Shown here in pieces: positions 59,368 to 63,456 of a stretch of DNA of 64,000 bases. The stretch lies in assembly GCA_943789465.1 (NCBI GenBank), contig CALSUF010000001.1, positions 1-64,000 of the forward strand, given 5' to 3'. Positions within the stretch are counted from its first letter, which is position 1, and every line of letters starts with the position of its first letter. The notes under the pieces are model-generated. The model ran no database searches. It had not been told where the DNA came from and saw only the letters and a program-made list of their open reading frames with translations. The stretch is from an uncultured Flavobacteriaceae bacterium (GTDB lineage: Bacteria; Bacteroidota; Bacteroidia; Flavobacteriales; Flavobacteriaceae). A program made the position numbers and the translations under genes.

Positions 59368-60450
59368 TTATTTATTCAAGATCAATTCTTGATGGTTGAT
59401 CGATTCCTGGTGCACTGCTTTAAACAGTTTAAGAATAAACTCTTCACTCAAGTTGTGTTGTTCGCCTTCTAAGACCATTTTACCTAAAATCTCATTCCAA
59501 CGTTTACTTTGTAAAACAGCAACGTTTTCTTGTTTTTTAAGAGTTCCAATCCCTTCAGCCACTTTCATTCGCTTACCTAAAGTCTCCAGCAATTGGTTGT
59601 CCATCACATCGATTTGAGCTCGTAAATTTTTAAGCTGATTGTTGTAAGCAACTTCAGGAGTTGATTCTTTTCTGATTTTTAAATCTTTCATGATTTGAAT
59701 CAAAGACGCAGGTGTTACTTGTTGTGCCGCATCACTCCAGGCATTGTCAGGATCAAAATGTGTTTCAATCATCAATCCATCAAAATTCAAATCTAATGCG
59801 GTTTGAGATACATCAAAAATCATATCGCGTTTTCCTGTAATATGAGAAGGGTCATTGATTAATGGAAGGTCTGGAAACTTTGTTTGCAGTTCAATTGCCA
59901 TTTGCCATTCTGGCGTATTTCTATATTTTGTTTTTTCATAAGATGAAAATCCTCTATGAATCACCCCTAAGTTTTTAATGTCTGCTGTTGCCAAACGCTC
60001 AATTGCTCCTAACCATAAGGCTAGGTCTGGATTCACAGGATTTTTAACCAAGACTACTTTATCAGTCCCTTGTAAAGCATCTGCAATTTCTTGTACAATA
60101 AATGGACTCACTGTAGAACGAGCACCAATCCACAATAGATCAATGTCGTGTTCTAAAGCCAATTCAACATGGGCTCTATTGGCAACTTCGGTAGCCGTTT
60201 TTAAACCGGTTTCCGCCTTTACTTTTTGAAGCCATTTGAGGCCCAATGCACCAACGCCTTCAAAATTTCCTGGGCGTGTTCGAGGTTTCCAAATTCCTGC
60301 ACGGTAATAGCTTACGTCTGTATCTTTTAGTTCGTGGGCAATTCTTAATACTTGTTCTTCGGTCTCGGCACTACAAGGGCCAGCGATTACTAAAGGGTGG
60401 TCGAGATTCAATTCGTTCAACCAATTTCCTAGTTCTTTTTTGTTTTCCAT
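59368..60450 (-). CDS. Bifunctional DAHP synthase / chorismate mutase type II
   Basis: A 360-residue fusion. The N-terminal part (to about residue 260) is DAHP synthase, first step of the shikimate pathway: LVIAGPCSAETEEQVLRIA, AGIWKPRTRPGNFEGVG, LLWIGARSTVSPF and PLINDPSHITGKRDMI. The C-terminal part (about 268-355) is a helical AroQ-type chorismate mutase: LRAQIDVMDNQLLETLGKRMKVAEGIG and RWNEILGKMV. The fusion joins the first pathway step to the branch towards prephenate, a Bacteroidetes arrangement. It is the last gene of the pheA operon, 12 bases after the tyrA remnant. It appears intact. Confidence 0.94.
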   Translation of the reverse strand: MENKKELGNWLNELNLDHPLVIAGPCSAETEEQVLRIAHELKDTDVSYYRAGIWKPRTRPGNFEGVGALGLKWLQKVKAETGLKTATEVANRAHVELALEHDIDLLWIGARSTVSPFIVQEIADALQGTDKVVLVKNPVNPDLALWLGAIERLATADIKNLGVIHRGFSSYEKTKYRNTPEWQMAIELQTKFPDLPLINDPSHITGKRDMIFDVSQTALDLNFDGLMIETHFDPDNAWSDAAQQVTPASLIQIMKDLKIRKESTPEVAYNNQLKNLRAQIDVMDNQLLETLGKRMKVAEGIGTLKKQENVAVLQSKRWNEILGKMVLEGEQHNLSEEFILKLFKAVHQESINHQELILNK

Positions 60451-60462
60451 TTTTTGTTATTA

Positions 60463-61315
60463 TTAAGCAATTCCTTTTAATATTTGTTTTATATGATTTG
60501 TGTTTTTCATTTCGTTGTGTACTGCATCAAAATCGTCTTTCTCCATATAGGCTTTAAATTGATTCAAATTTTGAATGTACTCAGTAAGCGTTTCTATAAC
60601 ATTGACTTTATTTTGTTCGAAAATTGGAGCCCACATATCGGGCGAACTTTTGGCCAATCGTACTGTAGATTCAAATCCACTACCTGCCATATCGAAGATA
60701 TCCCGCTCATTTTTTTCTTTTTCAATGACTGTTTTTCCCAACATAAAGGAGCTGATGTGTGATAAATGAGATACATAAGCAATGTGTTTATCGTGATCAT
60801 TTGCAGGCATAAAACGCAAGTGCATTCCCATTGTTTTGAAAAGGGTTAAAACCAATTCCCCTAAAACTGGCAAGGTTTTCTCGACCTCACAAATGATATT
60901 CGTTTTATTTCTTAAACAACCCATGAATTGCTGCTGAAGGGCCAGAAAATTCAGTACCTGCAATGGGGTGTGTTGCTAAAAACTGAGGACGTCTTGGATG
61001 GGTTGAAACGGCTTTACAAATGGCTTCTTTGGTAGAACCCATGTCTATCACCACCGCTTTGTCTGAAATAAAATTTAAAACTTGTGGCAGTACCTCTAGG
61101 GCTGCATTAACGGGAATTGCCAATACAACTAGATCTGCATTCTCAAGAGATTTCAAGTCCCCTGTTTGATCTATAATTCCGAGCTTCATTGCTTCCGTTA
61201 AATGGGTTTTATTTTGATCTATTCCAGTGATCTGAACTTCTGGAATGTAGTGTTTTAAATCCAACGCAAAACTTCCGCCAATTAATCCAATCCCTATAAT
61301 GCTTACCTGTTTCAT
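60463..61315 (-). pseudogene. tyrA: Prephenate dehydrogenase, broken by one frameshift
   Basis: Converts prephenate to 4-hydroxyphenylpyruvate for tyrosine. The N-terminal half (61315 to about 60910) has the NAD fold VSIIGIGLIGGSFALDL and the catalytic-region ATHPIAGTEFSGP. It then stops at TAA after GLFKK because of one extra A near 60908-60910. In the next frame the protein continues NKTNIICEVEKTLPVLGELV, AYVSHLSHISSFML and AGSGFESTVRLAKSSP to 60463. Total length is 853 bases, 283 codons plus one base. The start overlaps the aminotransferase stop by four bases (ATGA). No other lesion is visible. Confidence 0.87.
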
Positions 61316-62454
61316 GAGACTCGATTTATAGCGGATTGAATACTTTCTTTTGGGGCACACAATGAGAATCGAATATAGCCTTCGCCATTACTCCCAAATA
61401 TAGTGCCTGGCGCAATAAATATATGATGCTCATGAAGCAAAGAATCAATAAATAGTTCTGATTTCAATCCAGCTGGTAATTTGGCCCATACAAACATTCC
61501 TGAAGTTGTTGTTTCAAACTTGCAATTGAGAGTGGTGGCTAGTTCCCATACGAGCGCACGTCGTTCGGTATAAATTTTATTTAAATCTTTGAACCATTTT
61601 TTAGAACTATTTAGAGCTTCAATAGCCCCTTTTTGAATGCCATAAAACATTCCCGAATCCATATTGCTTTTAACTTTAATCACATTTTGTAAATGCTCCG
61701 CTGACCCCGTTAACATTCCTACACGCCATCCGGCCATATTGAAAGTTTTACTCAAAGAGTTCAACTCTAAACAAACTTCTTTTGCACCTTCAATATTAAA
61801 AATACTAGAAGGGTCTTCATTTAAAATAAAACTATAAGGGTTGTCATTAATGAGTAAAATAGAATGTTTTTTAGCGAATGCAACCAATGCTTTCAATACT
61901 GTTTGATTCCCTAAAGTTCCTGTTGGCATGTGTGGGTAATTAACCCACATGATCTTGACCTTAGACAGGTTCATCGTTTCTAAAGCTTCTAAATCTGGCT
62001 GCCAATTGGAGTTTGCTTTTAGATCATAAAAGATAGGGTCTGCACCAACAAGTTTAGTAACAGAGGTATAGGTTGGATAACCAGGATTTGGAATTAAAAC
62101 AGCATCGCCTTCATTTAGGTATGCCATAGAAATATGCATAATCCCTTCTTTACTTCCAATCAATGGTAAGACTTCATTTTCAGGGTTCAGACTTACATTA
62201 TAATTGGTTTGATAAAAGTCTGCCATGGCTGACCGAAGTTCTAGTAGCCCTTGATAGCTCTGGTATTTGTGTGCTGAAGCATCCATCAAACTGTTAGTGA
62301 TCGCAGAAATGACGGTTTTTGGTGGTGCCAAATCAGGACTTCCGATGCCTAAATTGATGATGGGCGCACCGGCAGCTTTCATGGCATTGACTTCTCTTAA
62401 TTTTTTAGAAAAGTAGTATTCTTCAACGGTATGTAATCGATTGGCAGTGACCAT
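61312..62454 (-). CDS. PLP-dependent aminotransferase, probably aromatic
   Basis: A 380-residue class I aminotransferase. The PLP Lys is in LNSLSKTFNMAGWRVGML, with NPGYPTY, MWVNYPHMPTG and the C-terminal GEGYIRFSLC bearing the carboxylate-binding Arg. Its place between pheA and tyrA suggests the final transamination to Phe and Tyr, though the sequence alone would also fit other substrates such as LL-diaminopimelate. Both ends overlap neighbours (TAATG and ATGA). Confidence 0.91.
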   Translation of the reverse strand: MVTANRLHTVEEYYFSKKLREVNAMKAAGAPIINLGIGSPDLAPPKTVISAITNSLMDASAHKYQSYQGLLELRSAMADFYQTNYNVSLNPENEVLPLIGSKEGIMHISMAYLNEGDAVLIPNPGYPTYTSVTKLVGADPIFYDLKANSNWQPDLEALETMNLSKVKIMWVNYPHMPTGTLGNQTVLKALVAFAKKHSILLINDNPYSFILNEDPSSIFNIEGAKEVCLELNSLSKTFNMAGWRVGMLTGSAEHLQNVIKVKSNMDSGMFYGIQKGAIEALNSSKKWFKDLNKIYTERRALVWELATTLNCKFETTTSGMFVWAKLPAGLKSELFIDSLLHEHHIFIAPGTIFGSNGEGYIRFSLCAPKESIQSAINRVS

Positions 62455-63281
62455 TATTTTTTTGCGTTTTTATATTCCCCTAATATTTTAAATTCTTCAG
62501 CCATAAGTTTCATAATGGCTTTCCCCTTTTCGTAATCGGAGAATTTCTCAAAAGTAATGTCCACAAAAAAGGCATATTTCCAAGGGGTATCAATTTTTGG
62601 TAAGGATTGTATTTTAGTTAAATTCAAATTACAATCACTCATCACATTGAGCATTGCTGCTAAACTCCCGCGTTTGTGATCTAATAGAAATTTAACTGAG
62701 GCTTTATTAATTATGGCTTTGTTGTGTGTTGATGGGGTTCGTTCTACAACGACAAATCGAGTTTCATTGTGTTTGATTGTTTGAATACTTTTTGCAAAAA
62801 TTTCCAAATCGAATAATTGAGCGGCTTGTACACTAGCAATTGCAGCGACGCCTTGAAGTTGATTTTCAGAAATTCGTTTGGCAACCTCAGCAGTGTCGGT
62901 ATCCTCGATTAATTTTATATGAGGGTATTGTTTGAAAAATTCTTTACACTGTAATAACGCCATGGGATGCGAAAACACTTCTTTTATATCTTGAACGGAT
63001 TGCCCTTTGAGTGCCATCAGGTTGTGTTGAATTTCTAAAAAATACTCACCAGTAATGTGTAAATCCTGATCATTGATATGTGCATAATTAGGAATGATAG
63101 AACCCGCAATAGAATTCTCTAAAGCCATAATAGCCACGTCCGAGTTGTTAGACATTAGGCTCTCCACAACTTCGCTAAATGAAAGGTAAGGTTGCACCAC
63201 AACAGCTTCCTCAAAATATGTTTGAGAAACGATGTGATGGAACGATCCTTCAATTCCTTGTATGGCTACTTTCTTTGTCAT
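62454..63281 (-). CDS. pheA: Prephenate dehydratase
   Basis: A 275-residue enzyme turning prephenate into phenylpyruvate. It opens with VAIQGIEGSFHHIVSQTYF, has ALENSIAGSIIPNY and the catalytic Thr-Arg-Phe in HNETRFVVVERTP near residue 170. A C-terminal ACT domain follows (DHKRGSLAAMLNVMSDCNLNLTKIQSLP). The Phe-sensing ESRP motif of many ACT domains reads QSLP here. There is no fused chorismate mutase; that activity sits on the DAHP synthase. It heads the operon and is preceded without a gap by the attenuator's T run. Confidence 0.95.
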   Translation of the reverse strand: MTKKVAIQGIEGSFHHIVSQTYFEEAVVVQPYLSFSEVVESLMSNNSDVAIMALENSIAGSIIPNYAHINDQDLHITGEYFLEIQHNLMALKGQSVQDIKEVFSHPMALLQCKEFFKQYPHIKLIEDTDTAEVAKRISENQLQGVAAIASVQAAQLFDLEIFAKSIQTIKHNETRFVVVERTPSTHNKAIINKASVKFLLDHKRGSLAAMLNVMSDCNLNLTKIQSLPKIDTPWKYAFFVDITFEKFSDYEKGKAIMKLMAEEFKILGEYKNAKK

Positions 63282-63310
63282 AAAAAAAAATCCCGATGTT
63301 TACATCGAGA
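63282..63310 (-). terminator. Attenuator terminator in the pheA leader
   Basis: On the minus strand TCTCGATG and CATCGGGA pair over 8 bp (one G-T) around TAAA, followed by nine T. The last T touches the pheA ATG at 63281. It is a strong intrinsic terminator placed inside the leader, before the first structural gene, so it must be regulated. Confidence 0.92.
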
Positions 63311-63358
63311 CTTATATTTAAAATTTATATTGATAAATTACATACACAGTGCCTCGAT
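63304..63358 (-). promoter_or_regulatory. Antiterminator pairing of the pheA attenuator
   Basis: ATCGAGGC (63358-63351, codons 20-22 of the leader peptide) can pair over all 8 bases (one G-U) with GTCTCGAT (63311-63304), the 5' arm of the terminator. The two structures exclude each other. A ribosome stalled on the upstream Phe/Tyr codons leaves this arm free; a ribosome at the stop codon (63340-63338) covers it. Confidence 0.8.
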
Positions 63359-63415
63359 TTCTTTTCTAAAAAAGAAATAATAAAAGCTATAAAAAATATA
63401 ATTTACTGTTGTCAT
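63338..63415 (-). CDS. Phe/Tyr-rich leader peptide of the pheA operon
   Basis: A 25-codon frame too short for usual gene finding: ATG at 63415, TAA ending at 63338. Residues 6-16 read YIFYSFYYFFF, with five Phe and four Tyr among eleven. The rest is RKEIEALCM. The block lies just before the antiterminator arm. Such runs of regulatory codons are the mark of ribosome-mediated attenuation: scarcity of charged tRNA-Phe or tRNA-Tyr stalls the ribosome and turns on pheA and the genes behind it. The start codon lies about 12 bases after the predicted transcription start. Confidence 0.9.
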   Translation of the reverse strand: MTTVNYIFYSFYYFFFRKEIEALCM

Positions 63416-63432: not shown

Positions 63433-63456
63433 CTAAAGTATATATATTTTCAACAA
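63433..63456 (-). promoter_or_regulatory. Promoter of the pheA operon
   Basis: On the minus strand TTGTTG (63456-63451) precedes TACTTTAG (63440-63433), close to TAnnTTTG. It would start transcription near 63427, giving a leader of about 145 bases before pheA. Between 63457 and 63591 only AT-rich sequence is seen. Confidence 0.45.

Follow-up and report, generated by a model that had tools for sequence, protein, structure and literature searches.

A predicted phenylalanine and tyrosine leader-peptide attenuator upstream of pheA in a marine flavobacterium

The enterobacterial pheL-pheA system combines a Phe-rich leader open reading frame (ORF), an antiterminator that overlaps the leader, an intrinsic terminator before pheA, and a 1:2 hairpin. 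Before their own Firmicutes case, Naville and Gautheret wrote in 2010, leader peptide systems were known only in Proteobacteria and Actinobacteria (PMC2965389). A 2019 survey listed two candidate upstream ORFs (uORFs) rich in Phe or Tyr codons at shikimate genes of other bacteria (PMC6429828). According to the main text of a 2021 study by Guérin et al., a conserved 5' element precedes pheA in Flavobacterium psychrophilum, and there are signs that leader peptides attenuate amino acid operons, hisG being named as well (PMC9723704). Going by that text, such leaders are better documented in Flavobacteria than the original prediction for our locus, which called them little described, had assumed. 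Here we analyze the pheA element of a marine flavobacterium within a 64,000-nucleotide stretch of DNA (the window), taken from a fragmentary assembly that is 84.9% complete.

The element precedes an operon of four genes on the minus strand.

62454 to 63281, minus strand: pheA, prephenate dehydratase, first gene of the operon (Pfam PDT, 1e-53)
61312 to 62454, minus strand: class I/II aminotransferase (Pfam Aminotran_1_2, 5.8e-62)
60463 to 61360, minus strand: tyrA, prephenate dehydrogenase, in two overlapping frames (PDH_N and PDH_C)
59368 to 60450, minus strand: fusion of DAHP synthase and chorismate mutase (DAHP_synth_1 and CM_2)

By scanning named genome contigs, we collected 80 close pheA loci with protein identities of 65 to 96%, almost all labelled as Flavobacteriaceae or its genera. 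The order pheA, aminotransferase, tyrA, and DAHP synthase-chorismate mutase is conserved in all 80 of these relatives. From its gene content, the operon serves Phe and Tyr synthesis and also governs entry to the whole aromatic pathway. The window's tyrA is split between the frames 60905-61360 and 60463-60963 (minus strand, overlapping at about 60900-60965) and is a single frame in 80/80 relatives; the split is due to an error of assembly or to a recent frameshift.

The intergenic region before pheA is 345 nt long, with a GC content of 23%, and holds the leader frame.

63338 to 63415, minus strand: leader peptide ORF, MTTVNYIFYSFYYFFFRKEIEALCM followed by TAA (direct reading; conserved in the 80 nearest relatives)
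63368 to 63400, minus strand: sensor codons, residues 6 to 16, with Phe or Tyr at 9 of 11 (direct reading)

Read on the minus strand from 63415 to 63338, the predicted frame has 25 codons and a stop: ATG ACA ACA GTA AAT TAT ATT TTT TAT AGC TTT TAT TAT TTC TTT TTT AGA AAA GAA ATC GAG GCA CTG TGT ATG TAA. As originally predicted, Phe or Tyr occupies nine of residues 6 to 16, where TAT, TTT, and TTC codons are interrupted by one ATT and one AGC. The frame and its conservation thus give the element a candidate short ORF with many codons for the amino acids that the operon makes. Across both strands of the window, it is the sole ATG frame of 12 to 45 codons with at least 7 aromatic residues in 11; five frames in the window reach at least 6 in 11, and the leader alone has a terminator within 110 nt. 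A U-rich intergenic stretch might spell Phe and Tyr by chance and happen to lie next to the terminator of the upstream gene, with no link between the two, and the 23% GC content does make Phe codons cheap. However, none of 3,000 dinucleotide shuffles of the 345-nt stretch gave an ATG frame with 9 aromatic residues in 11, with a terminator or without. Conservation of the element in 80/80 relatives and compensatory changes farther out refute this reading, to which we give practically no credence.

The terminator begins 24 nt past the end of the leader and reads AAGTCTCGATG-TAAA-CATCGGGATTT, followed by nine T up to the pheA ATG.

63351 to 63358, minus strand: segment 2, antiterminator strand ATCGAGGC in codons 20 to 22 (pairs with 63304-63311; compensatory changes in relatives)
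63303 to 63313, minus strand: segment 3, terminator 5' arm AAGTCTCGATG, with its core GTCTCGAT at 63304-63311 (terminator scan, minimum free energy [MFE] fold)
63288 to 63298, minus strand: segment 4, terminator 3' arm CATCGGGATTT (terminator scan, MFE and consensus folds)
63282 to 63290, minus strand: U-run of nine T, directly followed by the pheA start codon (scan and direct reading)

The original prediction was right that the terminator is of the intrinsic type and that its nine T adjoin the pheA ATG (63281). The terminator scan finds a stem of 11 pairs at 63313-63288 (4 of the 11 being G-C) rather than 8 bp, the earlier count having left out the A-U and wobble ends of the stem. Likewise, the complementarity between codons 20 to 22 and the terminator 5' arm does extend over 8 nt, but "perfect" overstated it: ATCGAGGC (63358-63351) and GTCTCGAT (63311-63304) form 8 pairs, of which 7 are Watson-Crick and one is G·U. 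The leader as a whole folds better than 200/200 shuffles (z = -3.84, MFE). A putative intrinsic terminator (63313-63282) therefore lies between the leader and the first structural gene, as it does in the 80 relatives.

A further helix is predicted upstream of the antiterminator.

63351 to 63387, minus strand: 1:2 hairpin with a 9-bp inner and a 5-bp outer helix (MFE fold, consensus fold)

In the MFE fold, this hairpin joins the Phe/Tyr codons to codons 17 to 22. The consensus fold has an equivalent hairpin, with 97.6% of cells paired, compared with 42 to 69% in slid controls (two helices together). The switch had been pictured as a minimal two-state one lacking an extra pause hairpin, a description that is not confirmed, a 1:2 hairpin being predicted and conserved; as folded, the element is modeled as an ordinary four-segment attenuator. 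The 1:2 hairpin is more weakly supported than the 2:3 and 3:4 pairings, since few of its pairs vary in both strands and Phe codons, being U-rich, readily pair with A-rich Lys, Arg, and Glu codons. In free, untranslated RNA of the window, our pairing model still predicts the 2:3 pairing (8.5 pairs) despite the 1:2 hairpin, which is therefore not clearly able to impose termination when the leader goes untranslated. The hairpin probably acts as a polymerase pause or as a shield of segment 2 when the leader is untranslated.

Bacteroidetes promoters are of a -33/-7 type, and a motif of this kind precedes the leader.

63433 to 63440, minus strand: Bacteroidetes-type -7 box TACTTTAG (consensus TAnnTTTG), 17 nt upstream of the leader ATG

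Among 79 leaders of the close set, 74 have TAnnTT[TA]G 8 to 35 nt before the leader ATG (expected, 0.03 per locus), and in 58/79 the -7 box is preceded by TTTG at a spacing of exactly 18 nt. The window itself has TTTT at the -33 position, a degenerate box. The pair of motifs fits the Bacteroidetes promoter type, so that a promoter upstream of the leader ORF may be inferred on motif grounds; from the box at 63440-63433, the predicted transcription start is about 10 nt upstream of the leader ATG.

Leader and terminator were retained upstream of pheA in all 80 closest loci (one leader is cut by a contig edge); none of these loci lacks both the aromatic run and the terminator, the outcome that the original prediction had named as fatal to it. 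We located leader and terminator directly in 78 of the 80. In L071, the leader lies farther upstream, at -539, and the contig of L024 starts inside the leader, whose end is present together with the terminator. The final four positions of the run are Phe or Tyr only in 79/79 leaders, the last being aromatic by construction of the alignment anchor, and TTT/TTC, TAT/TAC, and Phe/Tyr exchanges occur there with no other residue. Trp is common two positions upstream (TGG in 40/79 at -6 and in 10/79 at -5). The expected mixture of Phe and Tyr codons thus holds for the window's own clade, which has no Trp in the run (SFYYFFF), whereas most relatives outside the clade (L002 to L081) have NWFYFFF and combine Phe, Tyr, and Trp.

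The same pattern bears on whether the leader is a small-molecule riboswitch or is bound by a protein, as PyrR-like leaders are, with the ORF a by-product of a U-rich structure. PyrR was indeed the best Rfam match, at 26.7 bits. This score is below the 54-bit cutoff, and a generic hairpin with a terminator accounts for it; no leader family (Phe, Trp, or His leaders, T-box, PyrR) matched at the curated threshold, and no family of Rfam 15 other than PyrR gave a match at all. There is no conserved aptamer core; conservation instead follows codons (TTT/TTC and Phe/Tyr interchange), and the leader segment lies in frame with a conserved start and stop. We therefore regard a ligand- or protein-binding leader as very improbable.

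The position of the hairpin suggests another role. The stem might hide the initiation region of pheA until stalling on the leader opens it, giving translational attenuation in place of, or together with, transcriptional attenuation. Flavobacterial initiation relies little on Shine-Dalgarno sequences and favors unstructured starts, a preference that suits such occlusion; the window's stem stops 6 nt short of the pheA ATG, and the stem is within 11 nt of the pheA start in 46/79 close loci. In the remaining 33/79 relatives, however, pheA starts 19 to 177 nt farther on while hairpin and U-run are unchanged, and a long U-run kept intact is characteristic of terminators, which argues against a purely translational role. 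Given this spacer, translational occlusion cannot be the shared function, though it is possible in the 46 loci; we consider it unlikely as the explanation of the element, and transcription attenuation remains the preferred reading.

Within the close set, the GTCTCG core of the terminator 5' arm is invariant (74-sequence alignment), and segments 2 and 4 vary mostly in wobble-compatible ways. An invariant segment 3 fits a strand that would need to pair with two partners. Counts of 2:3 or 1:2 pairs in the close relatives alone showed no covariation, as segment 3 does not vary there, and wider sampling was needed. We searched a covariance model in 392 and 296 genomes, with E values that are rough owing to a short calibration. 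The model finds the element before pheA in other families, and 32 of the 45 loci fetched lie upstream of pheA with an aromatic-rich leader.

In these distant loci, the anatomy is kept and both alternative helices co-vary. The terminator core occurs as GTCTCG, GTCCCG, ATCCCG, or ATCCTG, and as GTCCCA in L165, a locus from the model-free sample described below, and the leader segment tracks it (CGAGAC, CGGGAC, CGGGAT, CAGGAT, and so on), as does the 3' arm. At core position 1, G changes to A together with C to T in both partners (segments 2 and 4); at position 4, T to C accompanies A to G in the leader; and at position 5, C to T goes with G to A in both partners. Cognate 2:3 duplexes average -13.5 kcal/mol, compared with -7.9 kcal/mol with arms of other classes. 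The observed sum of cognate pairing was reached by 0/19,995 class permutations, a count that overstates independent events because loci that share an arm class are related. For L118 and L179, the cognate arm gave no better pairing than the other arms did. Co-variation and cognate pairing are the strongest sequence evidence that both 2:3 and 3:4 are selected, and the three-way compensatory changes bear out a mutually exclusive antiterminator in which part of the leader pairs with the 5' arm of the terminator. Aromatic codons conserved in relatives (79/79 leaders) and compensatory stem changes (in distant Bacteroidota), the two signs that the original prediction had put forward as its check, were thus both found.

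In a model-free sample of 70 pheA loci across the phylum, 8 had an aromatic leader and a terminator: 4/4 in family f1, 2/2 in f3, 1/1 in f4, and 1/3 in f20. None was seen in this sample in f2 (0/5), f8, or other families, and the covariance model separately found one element in f8 (L100). Most sampled pheA loci outside the same class had no such element. The element thus appears, by sequence, to occur in several Bacteroidota families. Model matches without a nearby pheA (L093, L099, L102, L106 to L111, L120, and L126) resemble ordinary terminators near unrelated genes and were rejected, as was L125, where pheA is on the opposite strand and there is no leader. At L103, in a genome of the same family, an Ile-rich leader MKNLNNIIITITIIAIQQ and a terminator precede an ilvA-like gene (from about position 1481 onward), likely another attenuator.

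We consider it very likely that a Yanofsky-type ribosome-mediated transcription attenuator controls the operon from pheA through the aminotransferase and tyrA to DAHP synthase-chorismate mutase. Ribosome-mediated attenuation, as first proposed for this locus, is strongly supported, with leader codons, terminator, and antiterminator conserved in relatives and co-varying across the phylum. In the mechanism that we infer, transcription would initiate about 10 nt upstream of the leader ATG. When charged tRNA-Phe or tRNA-Tyr is scarce, the ribosome would stall in the aromatic run and leave codons 20 to 22 exposed. Once RNA polymerase has made segment 3, these codons would pair with it as the 2:3 antiterminator, segment 4 would be left without a partner, and polymerase would read through into pheA. 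With plentiful aromatic amino acids, the ribosome would reach the stop codon and cover codons 20 to 22; segments 3 and 4 would then form the terminator, and transcription in vivo would halt just before pheA. In the pairing model, the antiterminator forms with a mean of 7.7 pairs in the stalled-ribosome state, with the RNA ending at segment 3, and with about 0.1 pairs when the ribosome is at the stop codon. This contrast holds in 79/79 close and 35/35 distant loci (114 in total). More tentatively, and with rather less than even confidence, the element may belong to an old Bacteroidota attenuator family that senses Phe, Tyr, and often Trp jointly, and a terminator abutting the pheA start may also block initiation, giving double control. 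Joint sensing would follow from the DAHP synthase of the operon, which feeds all three aromatic pathways.

We also looked at other genes of the same genome. A likely attenuator of its own precedes hisG (G000:C2, about 286759-286930, plus strand; locus L197, about 1210-1380), with the leader MKSYIVIHHHLLTGCQAR and the terminator GGACCCGTTTGA-GCAA-TCAAGCGGGTCTTTTTTT, and TCAAGCG in this leader can pair with the terminator arm CGTTTGA. Upstream of two chorismate-binding genes and ilvD, we found no clear leader. In one chorismate-binding gene (isochorismate or anthranilate synthase-like; G000:C2:220032-220829, L200 and L201), the first match contains six in-frame stops and another fragment follows downstream; the gene is likely decayed or badly assembled.

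The pheA attenuator is thus real and well supported, a known type of control already noticed in outline, and it leaves the principle of attenuation unchanged. What it offers is an attenuator from Bacteroidota with its layout given in full and with phylogenetic support, together with a covariance model that would aid the annotation of amino acid regulation in a large and poorly studied phylum. Named cultured relatives (Psychroserpens, Olleya, Gelidibacter, Lacinutrix, and others) carry the element, making it directly testable.

The window's element is probably the F. psychrophilum pheA element of Guérin et al., as described in their main text: position, conservation in Flavobacteriaceae, and the lack of an Rfam match agree, and the pairing of pheA with hisG in that text is matched here by a His leader before hisG (PMC9723704). 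The main text of that paper gives no leader sequence, pairing model, or co-variation (PMC9723704). The Corynebacterium ilvB attenuator is similarly built, with a uORF rich in the regulated amino acids, an antiterminator strand in the first stem, and an intrinsic terminator as the second, but it differs in phylum, amino acids, and sequence, and no homology is implied (PMC11109978). With enterobacterial pheL-pheA, the element shares the target gene, a Phe-rich ORF, an antiterminator within the leader, a terminator before pheA, and, by prediction, a 1:2 hairpin. The two have no sequence or covariance relationship (no match to the Rfam Phe leader), and, unlike pheL-pheA, the flavobacterial leader combines Phe with Tyr (and with Trp in many relatives), its operon includes tyrA and DAHP synthase, its promoter appears to be of the Bacteroidetes type, and its terminator here abuts the start codon.
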